Below, one piece after another: positions 12,169 through 29,769 of a stretch of DNA of 64,000 nucleotides; within the stretch, counting starts at the first letter, position 1, and the number at the start of each line of letters is the position of its first letter. Under the pieces are notes generated by a model. That model was not told the origin of the DNA and ran no database searches. It saw only the letters and a program-made list of their open reading frames with translations. Both the position numbers and the translations under genes were made by a program. Origin of the DNA: Myxococcales bacterium 68-20 (GTDB taxonomy: Bacteria; Myxococcota_A; Polyangia; Polyangiales; Polyangiaceae); NCBI GenBank assembly GCA_001899635.1, contig MKVQ01000048.1, positions 372,001 to 436,000 of the forward strand, read 5' to 3'.

Positions 12169-13284
12169 ATGATTGACGGGGCCTTCCAATTGCCGGATCT
12201 TCCCCGCGAGATGGCGAACGAGAGCCCAAAGGGCGGCGGTTGGCGTGGGGTCGGCGTCGTGCTCGCTACGGCTGCGCTGATGATCGGCGCCTCGGATATG
12301 GCCCTCCGTCGGGTGTCTCCGCCGAAGTACGTGCGCGAGGTGGCGGATGCTCTCGCCGACTACGAGCACGAAGACCCGACCACGCTCGTCCTCGGCTCGA
12401 GCCACGCGCGGACATTCGACGTCATGGATCGCATGGCACGCGAGCGAACCCAGGGACGGGAGCGCATCCTCTCTGTCCCGCTCGAGGCGGGGAACTTCAC
12501 CGGGTTCGAGTGGGTGCTCCATCACCGGGTCGAGCCGCTCATCGAGGAGCGGGATGCGTCCGGCGCCAAGAAGCGACCGAGCCTCAAGCGCCTCGTGCTC
12601 GTCGCGGTGTGGTGGGACGCGTGCTTCGTCGACGGAGATCCGCCGAACTTCAACCTCCCGTCACGAGCCTGGACGTTCGGCGATTTCGCCGCCGACGTCG
12701 CCGCCCACGGCTTGAACGATCACAACCGCAACTACGTGACGACTCGCTGGCTCGACCTGTGGCACGGCAGCATCCTCGTCTCCGATCGCGGGCATGCGCA
12801 GGTGGTCGAGGCGCTCCACGACCGAGTAAAGCCGCTCTCGGCAGAGGCGAAAGAGAAGCAGTTCCAGTTCCGGCTGAGAGGTTGGCAGTCGATCATCGAG
12901 CGCGGAAAGATCTGCGGCGATCACCCGAAGGAGGTGGCGGCGGCGGATCGGATCCTGAAGTGGGGACAGGACAAGGGCTACGATGTCACGTTCATGCTCT
13001 ATCCGCTCAGGCCGATCACGCTCTCGGACGATACTCGGCAGAACGTCCAGGTCCCGTTCCAGAAGACGATGAGGGACGTGGCGGAACGTCGGGGCGTTCG
13101 ATTCGTCGACGCCACGTTCGACAACGGAGGGATCGACGACCCCGACTTCCAGGACTTCGACCACCTCACCGCGGCCGGCCACGAGAAGCTCAGCAACTGG
13201 CTCCTCGCCGACAAGTTCGCCTTCGTGCTCGACGGGCACGTGTCTTCGCCCCACACCACCGATGCCAGCGGAGGACGGCCATGA
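12169..13284 (+). CDS. Membrane-anchored SGNH-like protein, acyl-transfer partner (DltD/AlgJ type)
   Basis: A 371-residue protein with one N-terminal membrane helix (about residues 28-42) and an SGNH/GDSL-like extracytoplasmic domain. The block-I serine lies in LVLGSSHAR (Ser77/78) and the block-V Asp/His pair in DFQDFDHLTAAGH (Asp329, His332). Proteins of this kind (DltD, AlgJ/AlgX, PatB) work beside an MBOAT to place acyl groups on surface polymers. The stop overlaps the MBOAT start (ATGA). I used ATG 12169; a GTG one codon earlier is possible. It is the first gene of an eight-gene operon running into the NRPS/PKS genes. Confidence 0.78.
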   Translation: MIDGAFQLPDLPREMANESPKGGGWRGVGVVLATAALMIGASDMALRRVSPPKYVREVADALADYEHEDPTTLVLGSSHARTFDVMDRMARERTQGRERILSVPLEAGNFTGFEWVLHHRVEPLIEERDASGAKKRPSLKRLVLVAVWWDACFVDGDPPNFNLPSRAWTFGDFAADVAAHGLNDHNRNYVTTRWLDLWHGSILVSDRGHAQVVEALHDRVKPLSAEAKEKQFQFRLRGWQSIIERGKICGDHPKEVAAADRILKWGQDKGYDVTFMLYPLRPITLSDDTRQNVQVPFQKTMRDVAERRGVRFVDATFDNGGIDDPDFQDFDHLTAAGHEKLSNWLLADKFAFVLDGHVSSPHTTDASGGRP

Positions 13285-14732
13285 GCCTCTCCGAAGTCGA
13301 GCTCTTCTTCTTCTTCCCGGTCGTGTTCGCGGTCTACTGGCTGTTGCCACGGCGGGCCGTCGTTCAGAACGTGGTCCTCACGACCGCGAGCCTGTTCTTC
13401 TATGCGACCTGGAATGCGAAGCTCCTTCCGCTCTTCTTGCTGAGCACGCTCGTCGACTTCGCGGTGTTGCGCGCCTTCGCGCGAACCCCGGCGGCGGCGG
13501 ACGACGCCCCCGAGGACGAGCGAGCGAAGCGAACCGCGACGCGGCGGCGCTGGCTGATCCTCAGCCTGGTCTCCAACCTCGTCGTCCTCGCGGGGTTCAA
13601 GTACGTCGGGGCATTCAACAAGCTGCTGGCGCTGGGCCTGCCTCCGATCGCGCTCCCGCTCGGCATCTCGTTCTACACGATGTCGCGGCTAGGGGTGATC
13701 ATCGACACCTACTACGACCGGATCCCTCCCGTCCGATCGCTGCTCGTCTGGGTGACGTTCACCTCGTTCTTCCCGCAGCTCATCGCCGGTCCGATCGGCC
13801 GCACCGACCTCCTCGAGCAGTACGAACAGCCGCGCCGGCTCGAGGCCTCCTCGGCGCTCCGCGCGCTTCGCGAGGTCGGCGTCGGCTTCGTGCTCAAGGT
13901 GTACGTCGCCGCTCACGCGAGCACATGGGTGAATCCGGTCTTCGCCGAGCCTGGCGTCTATACGCGAAAGGCGCATCTGCTCGCCCTCATCGGCTATGCC
14001 ACGCAAGTCTTCGCGGACTTCGCCGGCTACAGCCTCCTCGCGCTCGGTGTCGCGCGCGCGTTTGCCGTCTCGCTACCGGAGAACTTCAACTTCCCGTTCC
14101 TGAGCACCAACCCGATGGAGCTCTGGCGCCGGTGGCACATGAGCCTGAACCGGTGGCTGTTCGACTACGTGTACTCGTTCATGGTGACGGGCGAGGGCTT
14201 CATGAACGGGCGCCTCGGCCTCGGGCTGGTCATCGTCATGATCGTCTCGGGCATCTGGCACGGCTCCACGTGGCCGTACGTGGTCTGGGGCGCGATGCAC
14301 GGGCTCTGGCTCTTCGCCCACTACCGCTATGACCTCCACTACAAGTCGCTTTGCCGGAAGGACCGCACCTGGGTCGCGCGCCGGAAGTCGGCCCCGTACC
14401 TGGCGCTCGGGTGGGCGGCGACGATCGGCTTCTTCATCATCGCGCTCGTGCCGTTCCGCGCGTCGTCGCTCGGGGACGCAGCGACGTTCTTCCGCGGCCT
14501 CGTGCTCGGCGGAGGCACCGAGACGCTCGACGCCGGGACGATGCACCCCGCGTTGGCTGTTCTCCTCGTCGTCCTTTACCACGTGCAGGCGATGCCGTTC
14601 TTCGACAGCGTCCGCGCGCGCTTCACCGCTGCCCCGGCCCCCGTTCGGGGGCTCGTACTGGGCCTCGTCGTCGTGTTCCTCATGATCTTCGCGCCGGTCG
14701 GCGCGGGCACGTTCATCTACGCTCAGTTCTGA
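13281..14732 (+). CDS. MBOAT family O-acyltransferase (DltB/AlgI-like)
   Basis: A 483-residue polytopic membrane protein of the MBOAT family. Signature segments are NFNFPFLSTNPMELWRRWH at about 268-286 and IVSGIWHGSTWPYVVWGAMHG at 321-341, with the catalytic-type His327 in GIWHG and His340. MBOATs of the DltB/AlgI branch pass acyl groups from a cytosolic donor across the membrane to cell-surface glycans. The frame is open far upstream over the SGNH gene, but the family start MSLSEVELFFFFPVVFAVYW fixes ATG 13281. An acyl carrier protein gene follows 18 bases downstream and is the obvious donor candidate. Confidence 0.92.
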   Translation: MSLSEVELFFFFPVVFAVYWLLPRRAVVQNVVLTTASLFFYATWNAKLLPLFLLSTLVDFAVLRAFARTPAAADDAPEDERAKRTATRRRWLILSLVSNLVVLAGFKYVGAFNKLLALGLPPIALPLGISFYTMSRLGVIIDTYYDRIPPVRSLLVWVTFTSFFPQLIAGPIGRTDLLEQYEQPRRLEASSALRALREVGVGFVLKVYVAAHASTWVNPVFAEPGVYTRKAHLLALIGYATQVFADFAGYSLLALGVARAFAVSLPENFNFPFLSTNPMELWRRWHMSLNRWLFDYVYSFMVTGEGFMNGRLGLGLVIVMIVSGIWHGSTWPYVVWGAMHGLWLFAHYRYDLHYKSLCRKDRTWVARRKSAPYLALGWAATIGFFIIALVPFRASSLGDAATFFRGLVLGGGTETLDAGTMHPALAVLLVVLYHVQAMPFFDSVRARFTAAPAPVRGLVLGLVVVFLMIFAPVGAGTFIYAQF

Positions 14733-14750
14733 AACGGAAATCCGAGCCCT

Positions 14751-15023
14751 ATGACATCATCGGAGCTTCGTCAGCGCGTCATCGACTGGCTGGACGACAA
14801 CTATCACTTCGGCGACGCGCAAAACCTGATCAAGGACGACGAGATGTCGTTCCTCGAGCGCGGCGTCCTCGACAGCCTCGGCTTCGTCCAGCTCTGCGTC
14901 TTCCTGGAGAAGACGTACAAGATCAAGATCGACAGGAAGAGCCTCACCCGCGCCAACTTCGACAGCCTCGGCAAGATCGTGCGCTACGTCACCGCTCACA
15001 AAGACTATCGAGGACCGAAGTGA
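14751..15023 (+). CDS. Stand-alone acyl carrier protein
   Basis: A 90-residue carrier protein. The phosphopantetheine site is Ser42 in GVLDSLGFVQL, followed by the second helix and FDSLGKIVRYV near the end. Length and helix pattern match discrete ACP/DltC-type proteins. It lies between the MBOAT gene and the acetoacetyl-CoA-synthetase-like gene, which it overlaps (GTGA), the place DltC takes in dlt-type operons. The phosphopantetheinyl transferase at 56794 could activate it. What it carries is not visible from sequence. Confidence 0.9.
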   Translation: MTSSELRQRVIDWLDDNYHFGDAQNLIKDDEMSFLERGVLDSLGFVQLCVFLEKTYKIKIDRKSLTRANFDSLGKIVRYVTAHKDYRGPK

Positions 15024-16996
15024 GCACGTCTGGGGGAAAGCTCCTCTGCATGCCGGATCCCGATCGGATCCAGCGCTCTCGCATGACCGCGTTCCGAAGC
15101 TGGGTCTCCGAGGAGACGGGCGCCGCGCTCGCGGACGATCACGCGCTCTTCGAGTGGAGCACCCGCAACGTCGCAGCTTTCTGGAAGCTCTTCGTCGAGT
15201 GGACGGGCGTGCGCCTCGGCGGCGCGCGCGAGCCGGTAATCGAAGGCGCCGAGGTCGAGACGGCGACCTTCTTCCCGGGCGCCAAGCTCTCGTACGTCGA
15301 TCACGTCCTCCGGCCGCCGGCGGACGAGAGCGCCGATGTCGAGGTCGTGATCGGCGTCGACGAGACGGGCGCCCGCGAGGCCCTCACCCGCCGAGAGCTT
15401 CGGCGGCGCGTCGCCTGTTATGCGCGCGAGCTCACGAGCCGCGGTGTCAGGCCGGGAGATCGCGTCGTCGGGATCGCACGCAACGTCCCGCGCACGCTCG
15501 TGCTTTACCTCGCGACACTGTCGCTCGGCGCGGTGTGGTCCTCGGTCGCTCCCGACATGGGGACCGAGCTGCTCGTCCAGCGCGTCGGCCAAGTGCATCC
15601 GAAGCTCGTGCTCGCAGACCTGTCGTACCCGTACCACGGCGCGCTTCGCGAGAACGTCCGCACGGACGCGATCAGCGAGCTCGTCCCGGGCTGCACGATC
15701 GTTTCGATGACCGAGGTCGAGGGCTGGGCGCCGGCCGGGGAGAGCCCGGAGCTCACGCTGGCCGAGCTGCCGTTCAACCATCCGCTCGTCATCCTCTTCT
15801 CGTCGGGCACGACGGGGCTCCCCAAGTGCATCATGCACGGGGCCGGAGGGACGCTCGTCGAGCACTGGAAGGAGCTCGCGCTGCACTGCGATCTCGGCCC
15901 CGGAGATCGCCTGCTGTTCCACACGACGGCCGGCTGGATGATGTACAACTGGCTCGTCTCGGCGCTCGTTACGGGCGCATCGATCGTCCTCTACGACGGC
16001 TCGGTGTCATTCCCGCATGCCGACTCGCTCCTCCGCTGCGTCGCCGAGGAGCGGTGCACCGTGTTCGGGACGAGCGCTGCGTACCTCTCTTATTGCAGGG
16101 ACGCCGGGCTCGAGCCGCGGAGCGCGCTCGATCTGTCGAGCCTGCGCCTCATGCTCTCCACCGGATCGGTGCTCCGCGATCCGATGTTCGAGTGGGCGTA
16201 CGAGAACGTCGCGCCGGTGCCCATCCACTCGATCTCCGGCGGCACCGACATCATCGGGTGCTTCGTCCTCGGCTCCCCCAACCTGCCGATCACGTGCGGC
16301 GAGAGCCCGATGACGAGCCTCGCGCTCGACGTGCGCGCCGCGAACGGAGGGGGCTTCGTCCGCGCGCCGGCCGAAGGCAGCGTGGTCGGCGAGCTCGTCT
16401 GCGTGCAGCCCTTCCCGTCGCGGCCGGTCGGCTTCTGGGGTGACGAGGACGGAAGCCGCTTCCACGAGTCGTACTTCTCCCAGAACGAAGGCGTTTGGAC
16501 GCACGGTGACACCATCGAGCTCACGAGCCGCGGGACCGCGCGAATCCACGGCCGGAGCGACGGGATCCTCAACGTGCGCGGCGTGCGCATCGGCCCCGGC
16601 GAGATCTACAAGGTCCTGGAGCTGTTCCCCGAAGTGAAGTCCTCCGTCGCGATCGAACAGCGGGCGCCGGAAGAGCCGGGGGGCAGTCGCCTCGTGCTCC
16701 TGGTCGTCCTCGCCGACGGAGGGCCAGTCCCGCGGCCGCTCATGCTGCGGATCAAGAAAGAGCTCGCCGCACGGACGTCGCCGGCACACGTGCCCTCGGT
16801 CATCGTCGCCGTCCGCGACGTGCCTCGTACGCACAACAACAAGGTGAGCGAGCGAGCCGCGCGCGACGCCGCCAACGGCGAGCTCCCAAAGAACGTGACC
16901 GCGCTCAAGAATCCCGAGGTGCTCCGCGAGATCATGGCCGATCCGGAGATCGCGATCGTTCGCGAGAATGCCGTCCCGCTCGAGGAGAAGAACTGA
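15020..16996 (+). CDS. Acetoacetate--CoA ligase-like adenylating enzyme
   Basis: A 658-residue enzyme of the ANL superfamily with the length and N-terminal extension of acetoacetyl-CoA synthetases (about 650 residues). The ATP-binding motif is LFSSGTTGLPKCIMHG; HTTAGWMMYNWL, SGGTDIIGCFV and THGDTIEL are further family segments. These enzymes join ATP, acetoacetate or a similar short 3-oxo acid, and CoA. GTG 15020 overlaps the ACP stop. Its place beside ACP, MBOAT and SGNH suggests it feeds an acyl group into this system, either as CoA thioester or directly on the carrier protein (inference). Ordinary acetoacetate use remains possible. Confidence 0.83.
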   Translation: MSTSGGKLLCMPDPDRIQRSRMTAFRSWVSEETGAALADDHALFEWSTRNVAAFWKLFVEWTGVRLGGAREPVIEGAEVETATFFPGAKLSYVDHVLRPPADESADVEVVIGVDETGAREALTRRELRRRVACYARELTSRGVRPGDRVVGIARNVPRTLVLYLATLSLGAVWSSVAPDMGTELLVQRVGQVHPKLVLADLSYPYHGALRENVRTDAISELVPGCTIVSMTEVEGWAPAGESPELTLAELPFNHPLVILFSSGTTGLPKCIMHGAGGTLVEHWKELALHCDLGPGDRLLFHTTAGWMMYNWLVSALVTGASIVLYDGSVSFPHADSLLRCVAEERCTVFGTSAAYLSYCRDAGLEPRSALDLSSLRLMLSTGSVLRDPMFEWAYENVAPVPIHSISGGTDIIGCFVLGSPNLPITCGESPMTSLALDVRAANGGGFVRAPAEGSVVGELVCVQPFPSRPVGFWGDEDGSRFHESYFSQNEGVWTHGDTIELTSRGTARIHGRSDGILNVRGVRIGPGEIYKVLELFPEVKSSVAIEQRAPEEPGGSRLVLLVVLADGGPVPRPLMLRIKKELAARTSPAHVPSVIVAVRDVPRTHNNKVSERAARDAANGELPKNVTALKNPEVLREIMADPEIAIVRENAVPLEEKN

Positions 16997-19900
16997 TGGA
17001 TCCCGCCAAGGAGTGGAACCGCACGGAGACGCTGTATCGACCGGAGGCGACCGTTCATCGGTTGATCCGCGAGCAGGCGGCGGCCATTCCCGATCGGCCC
17101 GCGCTCGTCTGGACCGGCGGGCAGATGACCTATCGCGAGCTCGATCGACGTTCCGACGACCTCGCACGGCGCTTGGTCGACGAGGGAGTCGGGCCCGACA
17201 TCCCGGTGGCGGTGAGCATCGAGCGGTCGCCCGAGGCCGTGGTCGCGGTGCTCGCCATCTTGAAGGCGGGCGGCTGCTACCTGCCGATCGATCCGCAGTA
17301 CCCGAAGGAGCGGCTCACGTTCATCATCGGCGACGCGAACGCGCCGGTGCTCATCACGCGTCGCTCGCTCGCGAGTCAGCTCGGTGCTCTCGCGCCGAAG
17401 ACGCTGTTCATCGAGGACCCGTGCGCGGAGGGTCCGGCGCTGGCGGAGCGCGTCGGGCCCACGAACCTCGCGTACCTCATGTACACGTCGGGCTCGACCG
17501 GGAACCCGAAGGGGGTCCTCATCGAGCACAAGTCGATCGTCCGGCTCGTCGGCGGCTCGAGCTTCATGCGGTTGAGTCGCGACATCGTCTTCCTGCAGGC
17601 GGCGCCGCTCGGCTTCGACCTTTCGACCCTCGAGCTCTGGGGGGCGCTCTGCCACGGCGGACGCGTCGCGATCTACCTCGAGGCCGTCCCAACCGGCCCG
17701 GGGCTCGCGCGAACGATCCGGGAGCACGGGATCACGTCGGCGTGGCTGACATCGTCGCTCTTCAACACCGTCGTCGACGAGGATCCGAAGCTGCTGACGG
17801 GCCTCTGCCAGCTGGCGATCGGAGGCGAGGCGCTCTCACCGCCGCACGTCCTCCGAGCGCTCGCGGCGCTCCCCGACACCGAGATCATCAACGGCTACGG
17901 CCCCACCGAGGTCACGACCTTCACGACGACGCACTCCATCCCGCGCGACACGCCGAAGGAGGCGAAGTCGATCCCCATCGGCAAGCCGATCGCCGACACG
18001 CAGGTCTACGTGCTCGACCCCGATCGGAAGGAGGTTCCGTTCGGCGAGGTCGGCGAGCTCTACGCCGGCGGCCTCGGCGTCGCTCGCGGCTATCACAATC
18101 GCCCCGAGCTCGACGCGGAGCGGTTCATTCCCGATACGTTCACAGGGAAGGGGCGCCTCTACAAGACGGGCGACCTCGTGCGTTTCCTGCCCGACGGCAC
18201 GCTCGACTTCATCGGGCGCGCGGACAGCCAGGTCAAGATCCGCGGCTTCCGCATCGAGCTCGGCGAGATCGAGGTCGCGCTCTCGCACCTGCCGCAGGTG
18301 CAGGCAGCGGCCGTGATCGCGCGCGACGACGGCACCGGCAAGCGCATCGTCGCGTACGTCGTCCCATCGAAAGATCGCTTCTCCCCGGCAGAGCTCCGCG
18401 AGGCCCTGCTCGAGCGGCTCCCCGACTTCATGATCCCGACGCTCTTCATCCGGATGCCTGCGCTCCCGATGAACACGAACGGGAAGCTCGATCGTAAGGC
18501 GCTGCCGGCGCCCGAGAGCACGCGGCCGGATCTCGCCCAGCCTTACCGCGCGCCGAGCACGGAGCGCGAGAAGCTCGTGTGCCAGGTGTTCGCGGAGCTC
18601 CTCAGCCTCGACCGCGTCGGCGTGGACGACGGCTTCTTCGAGCTCGGCGGCAACTCGCTCATGTCGCTGCGCGTCCTGGCGCGGCTCCGCGACGCGGGTC
18701 TGCCCGAGATCGCCCCCGCCCTCTTCTTCGCCGCCCCGACGCCGGCCGGGCTGGCGCGCCGGCTCGACGGCGACGGAGGAGCGGACCGCGCTCGCGCGCG
18801 CCGCCGTGCGCCCGCGAACGCGCGGGAGCCGATCGCAATCGTCGGAATGGCGGGGCGCTTCCCCGGCGCCCGCGACGTCGAGACGCTCTGGCAGAACCTC
18901 GTCGAGGGTCGCGAGAGCGTGCGCTTCTTCAAGCCGGAGGAGCTCGATCCGAGCATCCGGGAGCAGGCCACGTCGGATCCGTCATACGTGCACGCACGCG
19001 GCGTGCTCGACGACGTCGAGATGTTCGACGCGAGCTTCTTCGGCATCTCGCCGCTCGAGGCTCAGGTGATGGACCCGCAGCAACGGCACTTCCTCGAGGT
19101 GACGTGGGAGGCGCTCGAGAACGCCGGATACGTCCCGGAGACCGTCGACGGCAACGTCGGCGTCTTCGGCGGCATGTACAACGCGACGTACTTCGAGAAG
19201 CACCTCCTCCCTCGCCCGGAGGTGCGCGGTCGCGTCGCCGAGCTGCAGGTCACGCTCGGCAACGAGAAGGACTACGTGACGATGCGCGCCGCGCATCGGT
19301 TGAACCTCACGGGGCCCGCGGTCAGCGTGAACACGGGGTGCTCGACGGCAATCGTCGCCACCTCCCTCGCGATGGACAGCTTGAGGAACGGCGGATGTGA
19401 CGTCGCGCTCGCCGGCGCCGTGGCCGTCACCTGCCCACCTGCGAGCGGCTATCTCTACGTCGAGGGCGCGCAGGCGTCGCCCGACGGTCACACGCGGACG
19501 TTCGACGCGAACGCCGGCGGTACCGTGTTCTCGGACGGCATCGGCCTCGTCGTCCTGAAGCGCCTCTCCGACGCCGTCGCCGACCGCGACACGATCTACG
19601 CGGTGCTCCTCGGCGCGGCGTTGAACAACGACGGGAGCGAGCGCGCGAGCTTCACCGCACCGAGCCCGGACGGGCAGGCCGCGGTCATCTCGGCCGCGCT
19701 CGAAGCGGCCGGCGTCGATCCGCGCACGATCTCGTATGTCGAAGCGCACGGCACCGCCACGCCGCTCGGTGATCCCATCGAGATCGATGGACTCACGCGC
19801 GCCTACCGCAGGTACACGCCGGACCGCGGCTTCTGCTCGATCGGATCCATCAAGAGCAACGTCGGTCACATGACCGTTGCCGCAGGGGTGGGTGGGCTGA

Positions 19901-22900
19901 TCAAGACGTCGCTCGCGCTCCACCGCGAGCTCCTCCCGCCGACGCTCCACTTCACGGCGCCGAACCCGAAGATCGACTTCGACAGCTCGCCCTTCCGCGT
20001 CACATCCACGCTCACCGAGTGGAAGAGGAACGGCACGCCGCGACGAGCCGGCGTCAGCTCGTTCGGCTTCGGCGGCACGAACTCTCACGTCATCCTCGAA
20101 GAGGCGCCGCCGGCGACGCAGACCGACGCCTCGACGCGCCCCTCTCACCTCCTCGTCCTCTCGGCGCGGACGCCCGCTGCGCTCGCCGAGGCGAGCACGA
20201 AGCTCGCTCGCTTCCTCGAGTCCAAGCCGTCGCTCGATCTCGCGGACGTGGCGCACACGCTCCGGCGCGGGCGGCGCGGCTTCAGTCATCGTCGCTACGT
20301 CGTGGCGCGCGACCTCGCGGAGACGGTGCGCCTCCTCGACAAGCCCGAGCCCGCAAAGGCGGGCGCGCGCGAGGCCCTCGCCGACGTGCCGGAGCTCGCG
20401 TTCCTCTGCCCGGGGCAAGGCTCGCAGTACTCGCAGATGGGCCGCGGCCTCTACGACGCGGAGCCCGTGTTCCGCGCCGCCTTCGACGAGTGCTGCGACC
20501 ACCTCCAGACGATCACCGGCAACGATCCACGCGAGCGGTTCTTCTCCGACGATCCGTCGGCACTGACGGCCACGAGCGTCACGCAGCCGGCGATCTTCAC
20601 GCTCGAGTACTCGCTCGCACGCCTCTGGATGAGCTGGGGCGTGAAGCCGAAGGCCCTCATTGGTCACAGCGTCGGCGAGTGGGTCTGCGCGACGCTCGCC
20701 GGCGTCATGACGCTCGCAGACGCGATCGCCCTCGTCCTCGAGCGGGGCCAGCGGATGCAGGCGCTCCCCGCTGGCAGCATGCTGTCCGTGCGCCTTGGCG
20801 CCGACGCGCTCGCTCCGAAGCTGCCCGACGGCGTCGTCATCGCCTCGGAGAACGCGCCGGGCCTGTGTGTCGCGTCCGGGCCGACGCCCGAGATCGCCAA
20901 GCTCGAGGAGCTGCTCGCAGCCGAGGGCGTCGTCACGCGGCGTCTCGTCACGTCGCACGCATTTCACTCGCCGATGATGGACTCGGTCGTCGAGCCGCTC
21001 ATCGAGCGGATCGCGCAGGTCGAGCTGTCGCCGCCGAAGATCCCGATCCTCTCGACTGTGACCGGCAACTGGCTGACCGACGAGGAAGCGAAGAACCCGC
21101 GTTACTGGGGAGAACACCTCCGACGCCCCGTCCGCTTCGCCCCGGCGGTCGCGCGCCTGCTCGAGGAGCCGCGGCGTGCGCTCATCGAGATCGGTCCGCG
21201 CGCGACGCTCTCCGCGCTCGCACGTCAGGCGAGCGCTCCGAAGCGCGCGTTCCCGGTCGCCATCCCGAGCATCGCCGACGCGCCCGAGCGGGAGGTCGAG
21301 TCGATCTCGGCAGCGCTCGGACAGGTCTGGTCGCTCGGCGTGCCGATCGACTGGGCCGCGTACGGGGCGCACGAACGGCGCCGGCGCGTACCGCTTCCGA
21401 CGTATCCGTTCCAACGCCAGTCGCACTGGGTGGATGCCCCCCTTCCGACGAAGGCAGCAGCGCCGGCGGCGCAAGCCCCCATGGCCGCGCTACCCACGGC
21501 TCCCATCCAGGCCCAGATCTCCGTGCCTCCTCCTCCGCCCGCCACGTCCACGGCGCAACGCACAGCGCAGCGCAAGGAGCGCCTCACGGGGCGCGTCCGC
21601 GAGCTCGTCGAGGACGTCTCCGGAATCGAGGTCGGCGAGCTCGATCCGGCCACGCCGTGGCTCGAGATCGGGCTCGACTCGCTCACGCTAACGCAGCTCG
21701 CGCTACAGGTGCAGCGCAGCGTCGGAGTGAAGGTCACGTTCCGTCAGATCATGGAGGACTTCTCGTCGATCGCGGAGCTCGTCGCGATGCTCGACGAGCA
21801 GCTCCCGCCCGACCCCGAAGAACCAGCGCCCGACCCGAGCGCGACCGTCCCAGCGAGCGTCGCGACGAACGAAACGCCTCACCCCATCTCCGCTGTCACT
21901 TCCGCTATGACAGGAGCGGCCATGGCTAGCCCGTACGTGCGTCAGGTCATCGAGCAGCAGCTCCAGATCATGTCGCAGCAGCTCGCGCTGCTCGGTAGCG
22001 GGAGCGTTCCGACCGTAGCACAGCCGTCCGAGGTCGCGACGGCGGCAGTGACGGGTCCAACGGCCGCGCCGAAGCCGAAGAGCGACGACGAGCCCGCAGG
22101 CCCGATGACCTACGACGTCAAGAAGGCCTTCGGCGCCATCGCGCGCATCCACACGTCGGCAGACACGATGACGGGGCAGCAGCGCGAAGCGCTCGCCGCG
22201 CTCACGAAGCGCTACAACGCGCGCACGCGCCGCTCGAAGGAGTACACGGCCCAGCACCGCGGTCACATGGCCGACCCGCGCGTCGTGAATGGCTTCCGCC
22301 CGGTCACGAAGGAGCTCACGTACCAGATCGTGATCGAACGCTCGCGAGGCAGCCGCGTCTGGGACATCGACGGCAACGAGTACGTCGACGTGCTCAGCGG
22401 GTTCGGCATGAGCATGTTCGGCTGGCAGCCCGACTTCCTGCGCGAGGCGGTCCACGAGCAGGTCGATCTCGGCTACGAAATCGGACCGCAGCACGTCCTC
22501 TCCGGCGAGGTGGCGCGTCTCTTCTGCGACGTCACCGGCGCCGACCGCGCAGCCTTCTGCAACACGGGCTCCGAGGCCGTCATGGGGACGATGCGCGTCG
22601 CGCGCACCGTCACGGGCCGGAGCCTCATCTGCTCCTTCTCCGGGTCGTACCACGGCATCTTCGACGAGGTGATCGTTCGCGGCACGAAGAAGCTGAAGAC
22701 GATCCCGGCGGCGCCCGGGATCCTCCCGTCGTCGTCGCAGAACATGCTCGTCCTCGACTACGGCACGCCCGAGTCTCTCGAGATCCTTCGCCAGCGCGCC
22801 GGCGAGCTCGCGGCCGTTCTCGTCGAGCCCGTGCAGAGCCGCCGGCCGGACTTCGCGCCCGTGGAGTTCCTCAGGGAAGTGCGGAAGATCACGGAGCGCT

Positions 22901-23787
22901 CCGGCGCCGCACTCATCTTCGACGAGGTCATCACCGGCCTCCGGTCGCACCCGCGAGGAGCGCAAGGCCTCTTCGGCATCGACGCCGACATCGCTTCCTA
23001 CGGAAAGGTCGTCGGCGGCGGCTTCCCGATCGGCGTCATCGCCGGAAAGCGCAAGTACATGGACGCCCTCGACGGCGGTCACTGGCAGTACGGCGACGAC
23101 TCGATCCCGAGCGTCGGAGTGACCTACTTCGCCGGCACCTTCGTGCGCCATCCGCTCGCGCTCGCGGCGGCGAGGGCCTCGCTCCTCCGGATGAAGGAGG
23201 AGGGACCGGAGCTCCAGAGGCAGCTGACGGCCAAGACGGCCGGGATGGTCGCAGAGCTGAACGCGTTCATGTCGGATGTGGGCGCGCCGCTCCGCGTGAA
23301 CACGTTCGCATCGCTCTTCCGCAACGCCTTCACCGAGGAGCTCCCCTACGGCGACCTCTTCTACACGCTGCTCCGGGAGCGAGGCGTTCACATCCTCGAC
23401 AACTTCCCGTGCTTCCTCACGACGGCGCACACCGACGCGGACATCACGTTCATCGTCGACGCGTACAAGGGAGCCGTGAAGGAGATGCAAGAGTCCGGCT
23501 TCTTCCCGCCCGCGCGCGGCAAGGTCTCCGCGGCGAGCAGCGTGACGCACACGAACGGCACGACCAACGGCAACGGCACGACCAACGGCAACGGCACGCA
23601 CGCGCCCACCCCGAACGGTGACGCTCCGAGCCGGACGCCGAGCGATCCCTTCGCGACGCCGCCGGTCCCCGGCGCGCGCCTCGGCAAGAACCGCGACGGC
23701 TCGCCCGCCTGGTTCGTCCCTGACGCGGCACGACCGGGTAGATTCCTGCTCTATTCGCCTCCGCCTTCAGGAGAATCGTCATCATGA
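16996..23787 (+). CDS. Hybrid NRPS-PKS with aminotransferase: A-PCP-KS-AT-ACP-AMT
   Basis: A 2263-residue assembly-line protein. Order: adenylation domain, about 20-500 (YTSGSTGNPKG; NGYGPTE; NGKLDR); PCP with Ser554 (ELGGNSL); ketosynthase, about 611-1035, with Cys782 (TGCSTA), His918 and His958; acyltransferase, about 1135-1425 (GHSVGEW, Ser1225; HAFH, typical for malonyl); ACP with Ser1562 (GLDSL); class-III PLP aminotransferase, about 1740-2165, with Lys2004 (SYGKVVGGG). It lacks an N-terminal condensation domain, so A-PCP is a loading module. Expected chemistry: load one amino acid, extend with malonyl, then convert the beta-ketone to a beta-amine, as AMT domains of iturin-type synthases do. 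The A-domain pocket reads roughly DLLWAGGTFK by alignment to PheA, closest to aliphatic (valine-like) codes; low confidence. The start overlaps the ligase stop by one base (TGATG). Confidence 0.93.
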   Translation: MDPAKEWNRTETLYRPEATVHRLIREQAAAIPDRPALVWTGGQMTYRELDRRSDDLARRLVDEGVGPDIPVAVSIERSPEAVVAVLAILKAGGCYLPIDPQYPKERLTFIIGDANAPVLITRRSLASQLGALAPKTLFIEDPCAEGPALAERVGPTNLAYLMYTSGSTGNPKGVLIEHKSIVRLVGGSSFMRLSRDIVFLQAAPLGFDLSTLELWGALCHGGRVAIYLEAVPTGPGLARTIREHGITSAWLTSSLFNTVVDEDPKLLTGLCQLAIGGEALSPPHVLRALAALPDTEIINGYGPTEVTTFTTTHSIPRDTPKEAKSIPIGKPIADTQVYVLDPDRKEVPFGEVGELYAGGLGVARGYHNRPELDAERFIPDTFTGKGRLYKTGDLVRFLPDGTLDFIGRADSQVKIRGFRIELGEIEVALSHLPQVQAAAVIARDDGTGKRIVAYVVPSKDRFSPAELREALLERLPDFMIPTLFIRMPALPMNTNGKLDRKALPAPESTRPDLAQPYRAPSTEREKLVCQVFAELLSLDRVGVDDGFFELGGNSLMSLRVLARLRDAGLPEIAPALFFAAPTPAGLARRLDGDGGADRARARRRAPANAREPIAIVGMAGRFPGARDVETLWQNLVEGRESVRFFKPEELDPSIREQATSDPSYVHARGVLDDVEMFDASFFGISPLEAQVMDPQQRHFLEVTWEALENAGYVPETVDGNVGVFGGMYNATYFEKHLLPRPEVRGRVAELQVTLGNEKDYVTMRAAHRLNLTGPAVSVNTGCSTAIVATSLAMDSLRNGGCDVALAGAVAVTCPPASGYLYVEGAQASPDGHTRTFDANAGGTVFSDGIGLVVLKRLSDAVADRDTIYAVLLGAALNNDGSERASFTAPSPDGQAAVISAALEAAGVDPRTISYVEAHGTATPLGDPIEIDGLTRAYRRYTPDRGFCSIGSIKSNVGHMTVAAGVGGLIKTSLALHRELLPPTLHFTAPNPKIDFDSSPFRVTSTLTEWKRNGTPRRAGVSSFGFGGTNSHVILEEAPPATQTDASTRPSHLLVLSARTPAALAEASTKLARFLESKPSLDLADVAHTLRRGRRGFSHRRYVVARDLAETVRLLDKPEPAKAGAREALADVPELAFLCPGQGSQYSQMGRGLYDAEPVFRAAFDECCDHLQTITGNDPRERFFSDDPSALTATSVTQPAIFTLEYSLARLWMSWGVKPKALIGHSVGEWVCATLAGVMTLADAIALVLERGQRMQALPAGSMLSVRLGADALAPKLPDGVVIASENAPGLCVASGPTPEIAKLEELLAAEGVVTRRLVTSHAFHSPMMDSVVEPLIERIAQVELSPPKIPILSTVTGNWLTDEEAKNPRYWGEHLRRPVRFAPAVARLLEEPRRALIEIGPRATLSALARQASAPKRAFPVAIPSIADAPEREVESISAALGQVWSLGVPIDWAAYGAHERRRRVPLPTYPFQRQSHWVDAPLPTKAAAPAAQAPMAALPTAPIQAQISVPPPPPATSTAQRTAQRKERLTGRVRELVEDVSGIEVGELDPATPWLEIGLDSLTLTQLALQVQRSVGVKVTFRQIMEDFSSIAELVAMLDEQLPPDPEEPAPDPSATVPASVATNETPHPISAVTSAMTGAAMASPYVRQVIEQQLQIMSQQLALLGSGSVPTVAQPSEVATAAVTGPTAAPKPKSDDEPAGPMTYDVKKAFGAIARIHTSADTMTGQQREALAALTKRYNARTRRSKEYTAQHRGHMADPRVVNGFRPVTKELTYQIVIERSRGSRVWDIDGNEYVDVLSGFGMSMFGWQPDFLREAVHEQVDLGYEIGPQHVLSGEVARLFCDVTGADRAAFCNTGSEAVMGTMRVARTVTGRSLICSFSGSYHGIFDEVIVRGTKKLKTIPAAPGILPSSSQNMLVLDYGTPESLEILRQRAGELAAVLVEPVQSRRPDFAPVEFLREVRKITERSGAALIFDEVITGLRSHPRGAQGLFGIDADIASYGKVVGGGFPIGVIAGKRKYMDALDGGHWQYGDDSIPSVGVTYFAGTFVRHPLALAAARASLLRMKEEGPELQRQLTAKTAGMVAELNAFMSDVGAPLRVNTFASLFRNAFTEELPYGDLFYTLLRERGVHILDNFPCFLTTAHTDADITFIVDAYKGAVKEMQESGFFPPARGKVSAASSVTHTNGTTNGNGTTNGNGTHAPTPNGDAPSRTPSDPFATPPVPGARLGKNRDGSPAWFVPDAARPGRFLLYSPPPSGESSS
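23557..23598 (+). repeat. In-frame 18-base tandem repeat in AMT linker
   Basis: The unit GGCACGACCAACGGCAAC occurs twice and then partly. It encodes a Gly-Thr-Thr-Asn-Gly-Asn linker between the aminotransferase domain and a C-terminal segment ending in RPGRFLLY. It looks like a flexible spacer made by replication slippage. Confidence 0.75.
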
Positions 23788-26700
23788 GCAACCTCAGCCC
23801 GGTCGACTTCGATCCCTTCGCGGACGGCGAGCTCAGCAGCGCCGCGCCGGCGACCGCCGCGCAGCGCGAGATCTGGGTCGCATCCCAGCTCGATGCGGAC
23901 ACGTCGCTCGCATACAACGAGTCGTGCACGCTCGTCTGTCGAGGAGCGTTCGATCGAGCAGCGATGTGGGCAGCGCTCCGCGAGCTCCCGGCGCGCCACG
24001 AAGCGCTCCGCGGTACGTTCAGCGGCGACGGCAGGACGCTTTGCATCGCCGCCTCGCTCGAGATGCCCATCCTCGAGATCGATGCGACGCCGCCGAAGGA
24101 CGGGGAGCACCTGTACCAGGAGGCCTGGCGGCAGGAGGCAAGCACGCCGTTCGATCTCGGGCGAGGTCCGCTCGTCCGCGCCACCATCGTCAAGGTCGCG
24201 CACGACGAGCACCGCATCATTCTCGGAGCTCACCACATCGTTTGCGACGGCTGGTCGTTCTCGGTGCTGCTCCGGGATCTCGCGGCGATCTACAGCGCCA
24301 AGAAGCAGGGCGTTTCACCCGATCTTCCGGCGGCGCACGCGTTCTCCGCGTACGCCCGGGAAGAAGAGTCGCGCGACCAGTCGGCGGAGGAGCGGTACTG
24401 GCTGATGCGCTGCGAGCCGCTCCCCGAGCCCCTCGATCTCCCCATCGACCGGCCGCGTCCGGCGTTCCGCTCGGTCGCCTCGGATCGTGTCGACCTCGCC
24501 CTCGCCCCCGACCTCGTGGCCGCCGTCAAGAAAGCCGGTGCGAAGAGCGGGGCCAGCTTCTTCGTCACGCTCTTCTCTGCGTTCGGCGTGCTCGTCGGCC
24601 GGCTGTCCGGACAACACGACCTGGTCATCGGGATCCCGGCAGCGGGTCAGAGCGCCGTCGGTCGCGACACGCTCGTCGGGCACTGCGCGAACCTGCTGCC
24701 GGTCCGCATGAACGTCGCGATGGATGCGCCCCTGTCGGCGACGCTGAAGCAGGTGCGGAAGACGGTGCTCGACGCATACGAACACCAGCGCTTCACGCTC
24801 GGAGACGTGCTCGCGAAGCTCGAGATCCCGCACGTTCCCAACCGGCTCCCCCTCGTCTCGATCCTCTTCAACCTCGACACGGGGATGGCGCCGGGCGGTC
24901 TCGCCTTCGATGGTCTCGACGTGTCGTTCCGGGCGAACCCGCGCATCGCCGAGACGTTCGAGCTCTTCTTCAATGTCTTCGAAGGCAACGACACCGTCGT
25001 CGAGTGCCAGTACTCGACGGCTCTGTTCGATCGCGCCACGGTCGTCGCCTGGCTCGGCGCCTACGAGTCGATCCTCCGCGCGTTCGTCGCCCATCCGGAG
25101 CTGCCTGCGGGGCGTTTGCCCGTGCTGTCGCAGGCGGACGCGCGGCGTGTCGTCGGGGAGTGGAACGCGACCAGTCGCGCATATCCGTCGACCTCGACGA
25201 TGTTCGATCTCGTGGTCGAGCAGGCCGCGCGCACGCCCGACAAGGCGGCGGTCGTCGATCGCGATCAAACGCTGACGTACGCCGAGCTCGTGACGCGCTC
25301 GAGGTCGGTGGCCGCGGCGCTCGCGAAGCGCGGCGTCGGCGCGCGCGACCTCGTCGCGATCGTCGTCGAGCGCTCCGCGCTGATGGCCCCGCTGCTCCTC
25401 GGCGTCCAGGCGACCGGAGCGGCGTACATTCCGGTCGATCCGGAATATCCGGCGGAGCGTGTGGCCGCGTGGATCACGAAGGCGAAGGTCTGCGTCGTCT
25501 CGCCACGAACGAAGGCCCTGGCCGCCGGCGCAACGTGCGACGTAGCCTCGATGGAAGAGCTCCTCGCCGCCCCGGCCGGCGACTTCGCGGCGACCCCGTC
25601 GAGCAGCGACGCGCGCGCCTACGTGCTCTTCACGTCCGGCTCCACGGGCACGCCCAAGGGAGTCGAGGTCACCCACAAGAACCTCGTGAACTTCGTCTGC
25701 GCGATGAAGGACGCACCCGGCATGCGCGAGAGCGACGTGCTGGCCGCCGTCGTCACGCTCTCGTTCGACATCTCGGGCTACGAGATCTACGTGCCGCTCT
25801 CGGCCGGAGCGACCGTGGTCGTCGCCGATCGCGAGACGGCTCAGGACGGGCGTGATCTCGCCGAGCTGATGAAGAAGCACGCCGTCACCGTGCTCCAGGC
25901 GACGCCCTCGACCTTCCGCCTTCTCAAGCTGGCCGGTTACGATCCACGAGGTCTGAAGGCGCTCGTCGGCGGCGAGGCGTTCCCGCCCGACCTCGCCGAG
26001 TGGCTCCTCGCCGGCGGCGCGGACGTCACGAACTGCTACGGCCCGACCGAGACGACGATCTGGTCGACCACCTACCGCATGACCAAGGTGACGAACCCAA
26101 TCCCCATCGGGAAGCCGCTCGCGAACCAGACAGCGTACGTCCTCGACGCCGACGGCGAGCTCTGCGCGATCGGGGCGGTCGGCGAGCTCTTCATCGGCGG
26201 CGACGGCGTCGCGCGCGGGTACCTCGATCAGCCGAGCCCGACAGCGGAGCGCTTCGTGACCGACCGCTTCTCCGACAGGCCCGGCGCGCGCCTCTATCGC
26301 ACGGGCGATCGCGCTCGGCTCCGTCACGACGGCGTGCTCGAGTACTTCGGCCGCGCTGACGATCAGATCAAGGTGCGCGGACACCGCATCGAGATCGGCG
26401 AGATCGAGACCGGCCTCCACGGCTTCGCCCCGGTCTCGCAGGCCGGTGTCAGCGTCGTCACCGAGGATGGCGGCGACCCACGGCTCGCCGCGTTCATCGT
26501 CCCGAAGGCGGGCGAGACGGTCACGGCGACCGAGGTCCGCCGGCACCTCCGCAAGAGCCTTCCGGACGCGATGATCCCGCAGATCGTCAGGCTCGTGACC
26601 GAGATTCCCAAGACGGCGAACGGCAAGATCGACCGGCGCGCCCTCGCCAAGCTCGGCGCGGGCGATACCCGGCGGGAGCGCGAGATCGTCGCCCCGTCGA

Positions 26701-26924
26701 CGGACACCGAGCGCTTCCTGGTGGACCTCTTCCAGCGCGCCCTCAAGGTCGATCGCGTCAGCATCCACGACAACTTCTTCAGCCTCGGCGGCGACTCGCT
26801 CAAGAGCATGGAAGTGGTGATCGAGGTCGAGAAGAAGACCGGCGTACGTATCCGTCCGCGGAGTCTGCTCCTCTCCTCCATCGCGGATACGGCGAAGAGC
26901 ATCGCAGGAGAGCAGCAAGCGTGA
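23784..26924 (+). CDS. NRPS module C-A-PCP without thioesterase
   Basis: A 1046-residue single-module nonribosomal peptide synthetase. The condensation domain, about 20-445, has the intact motif HHIVCDG (His150, His151, Asp155). The adenylation domain, about 465-940, has LFTSGSTGTPKG, FDISGYE, NCYGPTE and NGKIDR. The carrier domain's Ser1005 lies in LGGDSL. There is no thioesterase or reductase. The specificity pocket by alignment to PheA is about DIYQLGCIWK, near known glycine codes (inference). ATG 23784 overlaps the stop of the aminotransferase protein, which should deliver its beta-amino acyl chain to this C domain. Release must rely on another enzyme; the next two genes are hydrolase-like proteins. 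Confidence 0.93.
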   Translation: MSNLSPVDFDPFADGELSSAAPATAAQREIWVASQLDADTSLAYNESCTLVCRGAFDRAAMWAALRELPARHEALRGTFSGDGRTLCIAASLEMPILEIDATPPKDGEHLYQEAWRQEASTPFDLGRGPLVRATIVKVAHDEHRIILGAHHIVCDGWSFSVLLRDLAAIYSAKKQGVSPDLPAAHAFSAYAREEESRDQSAEERYWLMRCEPLPEPLDLPIDRPRPAFRSVASDRVDLALAPDLVAAVKKAGAKSGASFFVTLFSAFGVLVGRLSGQHDLVIGIPAAGQSAVGRDTLVGHCANLLPVRMNVAMDAPLSATLKQVRKTVLDAYEHQRFTLGDVLAKLEIPHVPNRLPLVSILFNLDTGMAPGGLAFDGLDVSFRANPRIAETFELFFNVFEGNDTVVECQYSTALFDRATVVAWLGAYESILRAFVAHPELPAGRLPVLSQADARRVVGEWNATSRAYPSTSTMFDLVVEQAARTPDKAAVVDRDQTLTYAELVTRSRSVAAALAKRGVGARDLVAIVVERSALMAPLLLGVQATGAAYIPVDPEYPAERVAAWITKAKVCVVSPRTKALAAGATCDVASMEELLAAPAGDFAATPSSSDARAYVLFTSGSTGTPKGVEVTHKNLVNFVCAMKDAPGMRESDVLAAVVTLSFDISGYEIYVPLSAGATVVVADRETAQDGRDLAELMKKHAVTVLQATPSTFRLLKLAGYDPRGLKALVGGEAFPPDLAEWLLAGGADVTNCYGPTETTIWSTTYRMTKVTNPIPIGKPLANQTAYVLDADGELCAIGAVGELFIGGDGVARGYLDQPSPTAERFVTDRFSDRPGARLYRTGDRARLRHDGVLEYFGRADDQIKVRGHRIEIGEIETGLHGFAPVSQAGVSVVTEDGGDPRLAAFIVPKAGETVTATEVRRHLRKSLPDAMIPQIVRLVTEIPKTANGKIDRRALAKLGAGDTRREREIVAPSTDTERFLVDLFQRALKVDRVSIHDNFFSLGGDSLKSMEVVIEVEKKTGVRIRPRSLLLSSIADTAKSIAGEQQA

Positions 26925-27763
26925 CCCCCTTTTTCTTCGGCGACTCGAAGCGGCCGCTCTTCGGCGCGCTCTCCGAGCCGCCTGTCGCAAGCCAGCGCCA
27001 GCACGGGGTGCTCCTCTGTCCCCCGATCGGGCAGGAGCACGTGCGTGCGCACTGGGCCTTCCGGCAGCTCGCGACAGCACTCGCGCGCGACGGATTCCAC
27101 GTGCTCCGGTTCGACTGGTTCGGGGTCGGAGACTCGTCGGGCACCCTCGAGGACGCGACGCTCGATCACTTCGTCGAGGACGCCGCGACGGCCGCGTCGG
27201 AGCTCCGCGACATGACCGGCATCCGCCGCGTCTCGGCCGTCGGCCTTCGCCTGGGTGCAGCCTTCGCCGCGCTCGCGGCTGCGGACATCGACCCGTATCG
27301 GATCGTGTACTGGGATCCCGTCGTCGACGGCGCGGCGTACTTCCAGCGACTGTCGCGCCTTCAGCGAGAGATCCTCGTCGACCCGAAGCGCTTCTGGTGG
27401 GCGTGGCCAATGCCGGCGCGCGAGCTGCTCGCGAAGGTTCGCCCGCGGTCGGCGCAGCGGCGGCAGAGCGGGACCGACGAGATCGTCGGCTTCCGTGTCC
27501 CAGCCTCCTTGCGGCGCGCGCTCGAGAGCATCTCGCCGGATCAGGCCGTACCCGCGAACCGCTCCCGGCTCTCGATCGTGTCGTCCCGCGACGACGACGG
27601 GCACGCGGCGCTCGTGACTGCCTTCGAAGCTGCCGGCGTGTCCTTCGAGAAACGCGAGGTCGCCGTCGATGCGCGCTGGGACGACGCGAGCCAGATCGAA
27701 CAGCTGCTCTTGCCTGGCGAGACCACCAAGACGATCGTCTCGCTTCTCTCGAGGAACACGTGA
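26921..27763 (+). CDS. Alpha/beta-hydrolase-fold protein with Arg in nucleophile place (exosortase hydrolase-2-like)
   Basis: A 280-residue protein of the alpha/beta-hydrolase fold. The oxyanion-type start VLLCPPIGQEH and RFDWFGVGDSSG are present, but the nucleophile elbow reads G108-L-R110-L-G, with Arg in place of Ser, and no clear catalytic His follows. From memory, GLRLG is characteristic of the 'exosortase A system-associated hydrolase 2' family, so this is probably a family trait and not a defect. GTG 26921 overlaps the NRPS stop and the stop overlaps the next gene. It may be a non-hydrolytic partner or acyl-binding protein for the assembly line. A truncated relative with the same N-terminus lies at 43071. 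Confidence 0.75.
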   Translation: MTPFFFGDSKRPLFGALSEPPVASQRQHGVLLCPPIGQEHVRAHWAFRQLATALARDGFHVLRFDWFGVGDSSGTLEDATLDHFVEDAATAASELRDMTGIRRVSAVGLRLGAAFAALAAADIDPYRIVYWDPVVDGAAYFQRLSRLQREILVDPKRFWWAWPMPARELLAKVRPRSAQRRQSGTDEIVGFRVPASLRRALESISPDQAVPANRSRLSIVSSRDDDGHAALVTAFEAAGVSFEKREVAVDARWDDASQIEQLLLPGETTKTIVSLLSRNT

Positions 27764-28623
27764 CCACCTACAAGGACCACGTCCACAAGTTCGGTAAGGA
27801 CGACGGGCTCATCGGGATCGCGACCGTGCCGGACGCGAACCACGCCGCAGAGAGGCCTGCCGTCCTCCTGCTCAACGCAGGTCTCGTACACCGCATCGGC
27901 CCGTTCCGGCTCTCGGTCGAGCTCGCCCGCCGGCTCGCAGCGCAGCACTCGCTCGTCTTCCGCATCGATCAGTCCGCGCTCGGCGACAGCGCCCAGCGTG
28001 GCGACGGCCTGTCCTACGAAGAGCGTGCCGTCGTCGATGCGAAGGAGGCGATGGATTTCCTCGGCAAGCGATACGGCAAGAAGCGCTTCATCGTCATGGG
28101 CCTCTGCGCCGGTGCGATGAACACGCATCGCGTCACGGTCGCCGACGATCGCGTCGTCGGCGCGTGCCTGCTCGACGGCTACGCTTATCGCACGCCGATT
28201 TACTGGCGCCGGCAACTCCTGCCGAAGCTCGTCAACCCGGCGAACTGGGCCCGCGGCGTCGATATGCTGAAGGACAAGGTCCGCGGCATCGCGACAACCA
28301 AGCGGGAGGAGGCCAGCGGCGACGACGACATGCCGGGAGCTGACGCCGCCGAGATCTTCGCCCAGGAGTGGCCGCCGCTCGCCGACGTCCGCCGCGAGCT
28401 CGATCGCGTCGTAGCACGCGGCACGCAGATGCTCTTCGTCTACACGGGCGGCTGGTCCGACTTCGTCGACGAGAGGCAGTTCGACGAGATGTTCGCCGGC
28501 CTGCGCGAGAAGGCGCGCATTCGCGTGAAGTTCTTCCGCGACGCCGACCACACGTACATCCTCCTCGCGCATCGCGAAGCGATGCTCGACGAGGTCGCCA
28601 GCTTCGTCGCGCAAGTACGCTGA
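27760..28623 (+). CDS. Alpha/beta-hydrolase-fold protein with Cys nucleophile (exosortase hydrolase-1-like)
   Basis: A 287-residue alpha/beta-hydrolase-fold protein and the last gene of the operon. The nucleophile elbow is G114-L-C116-A-G, with Cys in the Ser position. An acid candidate is in YTGGWSDF and the catalytic-type His in RDADHTYIL, so a Cys-Asp-His triad is plausible. The pattern resembles 'exosortase A system-associated hydrolase 1', which normally sits next to hydrolase 2 and an acyl-CoA ligase in exopolysaccharide loci; no exosortase gene is seen here. GTG 27760 overlaps the previous stop. As neither NRPS in this operon has a thioesterase, chain release or acyl transfer by this protein is attractive (inference). 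Confidence 0.78.
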   Translation: MTTYKDHVHKFGKDDGLIGIATVPDANHAAERPAVLLLNAGLVHRIGPFRLSVELARRLAAQHSLVFRIDQSALGDSAQRGDGLSYEERAVVDAKEAMDFLGKRYGKKRFIVMGLCAGAMNTHRVTVADDRVVGACLLDGYAYRTPIYWRRQLLPKLVNPANWARGVDMLKDKVRGIATTKREEASGDDDMPGADAAEIFAQEWPPLADVRRELDRVVARGTQMLFVYTGGWSDFVDERQFDEMFAGLREKARIRVKFFRDADHTYILLAHREAMLDEVASFVAQVR

Positions 28624-28682: not shown

Positions 28683-29708
28683 TCATTCCCAATCAGGCTC
28701 GAGCGAGTATCGCGCGAGGCCGGCGGCAAAGCCGATGCCGTGAGCCGCGTGAAGCACCGGGAAGATCGCGGCGACGACCGGCGCCAGCGCGAGACTGTGG
28801 CGGCGCGAGACGCGGATCGCTTCGACGGCGGCGGCGGCCCCGTAGAGGCCGAACGCGAACGGCGCGATGGGCTGGAGCGGCGGGACGATCAGCACGGTGA
28901 CACCGCCCGCGACCATGAGGAACGGGAGCACGGGGCGGACCTTCGGGAAGGTCCGATGCTTGAGGAGCGTGCGCGCGCGACCCTTCCCGTAGCGGAAGTA
29001 CTGCTTCGCGAGGCTCCTGAAGGAGTCGCGGGGGAAGTAGTGCACGACGATCTTCTTGCTGAGGAAGACCTTGCCGCCGGCGCGGAGGATCCGCTGGTTC
29101 AGCTCCGCATCCTCGTTCGTGATCGCGCCGGCGTCGTAGTTACCGACGGTCTCGAAGACCTTCTTCCGGAACGCGCCGAGGAAGACGGTATCGACGAACC
29201 CTTCACTCTCGGCACTGCGATAGCTCGCGCCGCCGACGCCAAGCGGGCTCTCGAGCGCAGCGCAGAGCGCTCGCTGGAACCAGGTCTCGCCGATGGCTCG
29301 CTGCGCGCCTCCGACGTTGTCCGCGCCCGTCTCCTCGAGGACGGCGACGCACTGCGAGACGTAGTCCGGCGCGTAACGCGCGTGGACGTCCATCCGGACG
29401 ATGATGTCGCCCTTCGCAGCCTCGATCATGACGTTCATGCCCGCGGACTGGAGACGGCGCGGGTTGTCGATGACACGGACGCGCCCGGGCCGGCGCTCGG
29501 CGATCTCCTCGAGGATCTCGCGCGTGCGGTCGGTGCTCATGCCGTCACCGACCAGCACCTCGATCGATTCGACGGGGTAGTCCTGCGCAAAGACGTCTTC
29601 GAGGCACGCCTGGATGTGGTGCTCCTCGTTGAAACAGGGGATGGCGATCGTCACGAGAGGCGTGGTTTCGGCGCCCTTCGGGCGTTTCTCCATCGTGCTG
29701 GCGTCCAT
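28683..29708 (-). CDS. Family 2 glycosyltransferase (ExoA-like)
   Basis: A 341-residue glycosyltransferase of the GT-A fold. The N-terminal VTIAIPCFNEEHHI is the nucleotide-sugar binding start; IIVRMDVHARYAP gives the metal-binding Asp-x-Asp-type site, and GAITNEDAELNQRILRAGG holds the catalytic ED-x-E region. About four hydrophobic segments at the C-terminus suggest membrane attachment, as in ExoA proteins that extend lipid-linked exopolysaccharide units. ATG 29708 has GAGGAG about six bases upstream; GTG 29711 is the alternative. It is the last gene of a minus-strand unit with the AlkP-like protein and the Wzc-like gene. Confidence 0.88.
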   Translation of the reverse strand: MDASTMEKRPKGAETTPLVTIAIPCFNEEHHIQACLEDVFAQDYPVESIEVLVGDGMSTDRTREILEEIAERRPGRVRVIDNPRRLQSAGMNVMIEAAKGDIIVRMDVHARYAPDYVSQCVAVLEETGADNVGGAQRAIGETWFQRALCAALESPLGVGGASYRSAESEGFVDTVFLGAFRKKVFETVGNYDAGAITNEDAELNQRILRAGGKVFLSKKIVVHYFPRDSFRSLAKQYFRYGKGRARTLLKHRTFPKVRPVLPFLMVAGGVTVLIVPPLQPIAPFAFGLYGAAAAVEAIRVSRRHSLALAPVVAAIFPVLHAAHGIGFAAGLARYSLEPDWE

Positions 29709-29769
29709 CACTCTCTCCTCACTCGGACGTCGACGCGCGTCGACGGCATATCGTCGGGCAATCTTTGGG

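Follow-up and report, generated by a model that had tools for sequence, protein, structure and literature searches.

The Dlt system of D-alanylation combines a ligase (DltA), a carrier protein (DltC), an acyltransferase of the MBOAT family (DltB) and DltD. Carrier-bound amino acids also occur in operons built around amino acid–[carrier protein] ligases (NF005479), stand-alone enzymes resembling aminoacyl-tRNA synthetases that load glycine or alanine and are encoded with an acyl carrier protein (ACP), DUF1839 and GH2. Longer products are assembled by hybrids of nonribosomal peptide synthetase (NRPS) and polyketide synthase (PKS); those of the microcystin and iturin type have a built-in aminotransferase (AMT) and the order KS-AT-ACP-AMT, then C-A-PCP. 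Here, we describe an eight-gene run with likenesses to these systems in a 64,000-nucleotide stretch of Myxococcales bacterium 68-20 (hereafter the window; positions 372001–436000 of contig 48 in an 11.9-Mb genome). The run is an operon of two separable modules, SGNH-MBOAT-ACP-ligase (module 1) and NRPS-PKS with two hydrolase-fold proteins, hydr2 and hydr1 (module 2). No description of this gene combination was found in the literature searched, which left most subscription papers outside it and makes the absence weak evidence.

Two modules in one run

The eight genes lie on the plus strand (12169–28623), and five of their seven junctions, read from the sequence, overlap by one or four bases. 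Module 1 opens with an SGNH/GDSL-type hydrolase (12169–13284; PF13472 at 2.6e-5, under the curated cut-off), whose gene overlaps at ATGA (13281–13284) that of an MBOAT acyltransferase (13281–14732), which exceeds the cut-off of the general MBOAT family model (PF03062, 52.6 bits against 27) and has a WHG motif in its translation. After a gap of 18 bases comes a small ACP (14751–15023), with a PP-binding match at 0.0014 and matches below cut-off to AmcB and DltC (34 bits against 68 for DltC). The AMP ligase that follows scores 625 bits with TIGR01217 (cut-off 521) and so falls in the acetoacetate-CoA ligase family. With its start at ATG 15050 (15050–16996) it is separated from the ACP gene by 26 bases, while an alternative start at GTG 15020 would overlap that gene by GTGA. 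Module 1 shares the four-part ligase, carrier, MBOAT and SGNH layout of Dlt, but its ligase is of another family than DltA, with no DltA model among the best 25 matches, and unlike Dlt it is found in Myxococcota.

The ligase gene shares one base (16996, in TGATG) with NRPS1 (16996–23787; 2263 aa), which Pfam reads as A-PCP-KS-AT-ACP-aminotransferase. ATGA at 23784 joins this gene to NRPS2 (23784–26924; 1046 aa; C-A-PCP), and GTGA at 26921 and again at 27760 continues the overlaps through the genes for hydr2 (26921–27763) and hydr1 (27760–28623), both of the alpha/beta-hydrolase fold. The motifs checked in this hybrid NRPS-PKS are intact: the KS cysteine (TGCST), GHSVG and HAFH in the AT domain, which we take to be of the malonyl type, HHIVCDG in the C domain, GGNSL and GGDSL in the PCPs, and GK..GG in the aminotransferase. 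Compared with the microcystin and iturin type, module 2 has the same domain order but only two amino acid modules, lacks a thioesterase (TE) and lies in a polysaccharide locus. Pfam places neither a TE nor a reductase release domain in NRPS1 or NRPS2. The one-base junction, the overlaps that continue through both hydrolase genes, the single operon and the missing TE had all been proposed in the original prediction, and all were recovered here, in an operon-like run of same-strand genes in a polysaccharide setting. With five overlaps in eight genes, and with both blocks conserved elsewhere, chance is an unlikely explanation of this arrangement.

Module 1 recurs in other Myxococcota. Its MBOAT subfamily (39–56% identity, nearly all at least 44%, E < 1e-85) was found in 4 of the 318 host-class genomes and in 18 of 379 genomes in a sample of the phylum. 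At the 16 Myxococcota loci outside the host class (14 genomes), an SGNH gene always stands upstream of the MBOAT on the same strand, and in nine the MBOAT is followed by an ACP or by ACP and ligase, in the window's order. ACP homologues (49–67% identity) adjoin the same MBOAT in other genomes, and ligase orthologues adjoin the MBOAT-ACP pair. Stretches of up to about 10 kb on either side of these 16 loci revealed neither an NRPS domain nor a module 2 hydrolase, and no homologue of the window's polysaccharide genes matched in the stretches fetched for module 1 loci L219–L234. Recurring in Myxococcota with no NRPS detected nearby, module 1 is thus a free-standing Dlt-like block.

Module 2 is spread more widely. 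Its loci came from a search of 193 host-class genomes, with NRPS genes located in the class by domain-wise tblastn, and from a scan of GTDB contigs for hydr1. The 80 named hydr1 loci include Corallococcus, Lysobacter, Luteimonas, Variovorax, Kangiellaceae, Planctomycetota, Gemmatimonas and KSB1, among others, and 67 of them have at least one NRPS/PKS-type domain match within 10 kb. The usual order places C-A-PCP directly before hydr2-hydr1, preceded by A-KS-AT-aminotransferase where the contig permits. Judged from these gene neighbourhoods, the hydr2/hydr1 pair, touched on just briefly in the original prediction, is the usual travelling partner of the module 2 NRPS. The 80 loci yielded no SGNH, MBOAT or ligase homologue and one weak ACP match. 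By alignment, the NRPS1 A domain is predicted to be valine-like (DLLWAGGTF) and that of NRPS2 glycine-like (DIYQLGCIW). A glycine-type code was found in 27 of 32 loci whose A domain ends less than 1.5 kb upstream of hydr2, counted after removal of duplicate records and with about eight of the glycine loci from Corallococcus.

Among the genomes examined, the two modules are joined twice, in the window and in G088, a genome of the same family. In G088 NRPS1 comes first and overlaps by four bases an MBOAT gene followed by ACP and ligase; no SGNH homologue was found in this operon, and the C-A-PCP genes and hydr2-hydr1 lie on another contig. The G088 NRPS1 has a C-like domain at its N terminus, which looks degenerate because a search for HHxxxD gave no match. 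In a tree of the aminotransferase domain, the window's NRPS1 groups with members of the class that showed no module 1, and that of G088 falls elsewhere; an approximately unbiased (AU) test rejected the two as sisters, with a p-value that long branches keep from being taken literally. The second joining thus appears independent of the window's, and two joinings with different gene order and non-sister NRPS genes support a real functional coupling of the modules. Two further genomes, G178 and G029, contain module 1, with hydr1 not found, a result limited by short contigs.

The hydrolase pair and its neighbours

The best NCBIfam matches of hydr1 and hydr2 are the exosortase A system-associated hydrolases 1 and 2, although both fall short of the cut-offs (TIGR03100, 59.9 bits against 168.45; TIGR03101, 86.8 against 202.75). 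The 2006 PEP-CTERM paper does not mention hydrolases (PMC1569441). In contrast to the exosortase A hydrolases, hydr2 and hydr1 here follow an NRPS. The window's genome (G000) gave no match to the exosortase model TIGR02602, so we rejected membership of the exosortase/PEP-CTERM system. The structural models of hydr1 and hydr2 are confident (predicted local distance difference test scores of 90 and 91, respectively) and both adopt alpha/beta-hydrolase folds with PDB matches. In the nucleophile elbow of hydr1 (GLCAG), a cysteine (Cys116) occupies the nucleophile position in 81 of 81 sequences and aligns, by profile, with the serine of a solved MHETase; His264 is likewise invariant (81 of 81). The hydr2 elbow (GLRLG) has arginine in 77 of 78 sequences. 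From these residues, hydr1 looks suited to acyl-enzyme chemistry and hydr2 looks like a non-catalytic partner; together they probably take the place of the missing TE.

The pair also exists as a single fused protein in the host class. Fused hydr2-hydr1 operons occur in Azospirillum, Mycetohabitans and the host-class genome G072, where they include an ACP, an acyl-CoA dehydrogenase, an amino acid–[acyl-carrier-protein] ligase, DUF1839 and GH2, and also in Rhizobium; in Rhizobium sp. NLR16a this set adjoins a gene for a Wzx-type flippase fused to both hydr2 and hydr1. In such operons a stand-alone ligase replaces the NRPS, and hydr2-hydr1 therefore accompanies carrier-bound amino acids there too. 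The window's genome gave no NF005479 match, and its membership of this ligase system was rejected. Large fusions ahead of fused hydr2-hydr1 were mostly rejected as well, the long frames being shadows of an upstream GH2-type gene. A nucleotide search for hydr2-hydr1 in plasmids and phages gave no match. In Rhizobium, the fusion of Wzx-type flippase, hydr2 and hydr1 (L199:9559-12867) has GQGLG in place of the GLRLG elbow of hydr2. One genome of the window's genus encodes a GNAT domain (Acetyltransf_6) fused to hydr2-hydr1 (L188:5195-8218), and a similar GNAT adjoins hydr1 in a Rhodocyclaceae locus (L133:11169-12335).

In the window, a polysaccharide locus flanks the eight-gene run on both sides, as delimited by gene calling (codon-position GC) and Pfam. 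Polysaccharide genes accompany module 2 in several other lineages. In Variovorax paradoxus VAI-C, one strand encodes two NRPSs, a phosphopantetheinyl transferase (PPTase), hydr2, hydr1, Wza, a tyrosine autokinase and a sugar transferase, and continues with glycosyltransferases, a polysaccharide biosynthesis protein and galE. Lysobacter soli has a Polysacc_synt flippase immediately downstream of hydr1, and homologues of Wza, Wzz-like, Wzy and glycosyltransferase proteins within about 20 kb. Glycosyltransferases, Polysacc_synt and polysaccharide deacetylase, with 3 to 5 matches each, are the top Pfam families among 124 open reading frames downstream of hydr1 in other loci. In 12 of 30 genomes a Wza gene is found no more than 45 kb from hydr1, where about 2 are expected, and counted by lineage the figure is 5 of 18 (about 1.8 expected, P ~0.02); Wza matches on contigs other than that of hydr1 were excluded.

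A tentative model and its rivals

Gly-ending NRPS lines with hydr2/hydr1 in several phyla suggest that short peptides are built for attachment to polysaccharide. We tentatively propose, with a little less than even confidence, that hydr1 and hydr2 transfer a glycine-terminated beta-amino peptide from its carrier to a polysaccharide precursor, and that the MBOAT and SGNH proteins acylate separately. A single operon in a Wzx/Wzy polysaccharide locus would then unite two carrier-protein-based decoration modules. NRPS1 would activate an aliphatic amino acid, extend it with malonate and aminate the beta-keto group, and NRPS2 would add glycine to give a short diamino peptide, bound to its carrier through a glycyl thioester. 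The peptidyl-glycyl group would pass to the hydr1 cysteine, with hydr2 as an apparently non-catalytic partner, and then to the glycan precursor, most likely the lipid-linked repeat unit while it still faces the cytoplasm, ahead of flipping by Wzx. The module 1 ligase may charge the small ACP with a short acyl group, perhaps acetoacetyl or 3-hydroxybutyryl; the MBOAT would carry this group through the membrane, and the SGNH protein would place it on the glycan, presumably the same polymer, in a Dlt-like manner and separately from the peptide.

Several points weigh against this proposal. The NRPS2 code differs from the usual glycine code at two positions, and the amino acid codes are themselves predictions, as are the product, acceptor and activity, read from genes and sequence. 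A cysteine alpha/beta-hydrolase may merely hydrolyse its substrate, relatives of Wzx could export a free product, and the Wza statistic is modest when counted by lineage. In the stretches read, no polysaccharide genes appear at the Corallococcus clusters or at some of those in Variovorax, and the glycan link is thus recurrent rather than universal. These clusters also favour the main rival, in which a free small peptide is released by hydr1 (with hydr2) as a trans-acting thioesterase and exported by a flippase-type protein, the polysaccharide neighbours being incidental. Separate alpha/beta-hydrolase thioesterases are a known route of NRPS release. We nevertheless consider a free peptide rather unlikely, since the polysaccharide setting recurs in several lineages, hydr2-hydr1 is fused to a Wzx-type protein, and the pair also occurs in amino acid–ACP ligase operons that show no NRPS.

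The original prediction had linked the NRPS genes to the acylation block and had the MBOAT/SGNH pair move the NRPS product onto the glycan. The link itself gains from its apparently independent recurrence in G088, where NRPS1 again adjoins MBOAT-ACP-ligase, and the Dlt layout of MBOAT, ACP, ligase and SGNH protein fits a transfer role. The handling of the NRPS product by the MBOAT/SGNH pair found no support: the block is equipped with an ACP and a ligase of its own, it stands with no NRPS detected nearby in the 14 outside-class genomes, and no SGNH homologue was detected in the G088 operon. Related NRPS genes, moreover, occur in many phyla away from any such block, a result that the prediction itself had named as counting against it, and we regard this transfer as quite improbable. 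It is somewhat less improbable, although still unlikely, that the modules share nothing beyond a polysaccharide island and a transcript and make unrelated products; each occurs alone, and in islands of this kind the two could come together by drift, but the start-stop overlaps and the two joinings in different order argue otherwise. Least probable by far is lipo-initiation, in which the NRPS would receive an acyl starter from the ligase and ACP and make an N-acyl peptide. The ligase-ACP pair does adjoin NRPS1, and the G088 NRPS1 begins with a C-like domain, but that domain looks degenerate, the window's NRPS1 begins with an A domain, and elsewhere the pair belongs to the MBOAT module.

Beyond the window, the transfer of peptides by hydr1/hydr2 may extend to a widespread class of polysaccharides bearing short, glycine-linked, amine-rich NRPS-PKS peptides, with the same two-protein transferase, a cysteine hydrolase and a pseudo-hydrolase, also supplying the missing acceptor step of amino acid–[carrier protein] ligases, a wider claim in which our confidence is low. 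If true, nonribosomal peptide synthesis also decorates surface polysaccharides in several phyla, beyond making free natural products. Two conserved hydrolase families named by context alone would gain a testable role, as would the ligase operons, and TE-less NRPS clusters in polysaccharide loci would be read differently in genome mining.

The surrounding locus

The genes around the run include those of a Wzx/Wzy polysaccharide locus, all in one region. On the minus strand lie a Wzx-type flippase (2508–3968; PF13440), a polymerase of the Wzy/O-antigen-ligase type (4045–5466; PF04932) and a family 2 glycosyltransferase (28683–29711; PF00535), and on the plus strand a Wza-type export protein (33003–33647; PF02563) and a priming sugar transferase (33821–34540; PF02397). 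Further genes are of the Gfo/Idh and epimerase types or encode a CysE-like hexapeptide transferase, a methyltransferase of the TylF type and additional glycosyltransferases. A candidate gene at 3039–4016 was rejected because its frame merely shadows the Wzx gene on the opposite strand, and the matches of this frame in relatives probably marked their flippases.

A plus-strand gene at 7299–8474 encodes a protein with no Pfam match, a polysaccharide-locus family that has no name; its homologues (39–69% identity) lie near Wzy, Wza or hydr1 in loci L070, L075, L134, L142, L144 and L187. Three proteins of the beta-helix type around the locus (5511–7235, 36134–37966 and 39405–41111; weak Pfam Beta_helix matches) are perhaps polysaccharide lyases or adhesins. 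A second NRPS-PKS that lacks a TE is encoded on the minus strand by two genes (43167–56668; Pfam). Within the region 43167–57501 it reads formyltransferase-A-PCP, then KS-AT-KR-DH-carrier-C-A-PCP, with a luciferase-like monooxygenase inserted in the first A domain. A PPTase gene adjoins it, and alignment of the codes gives glycine for the last A domain, the reading for both.

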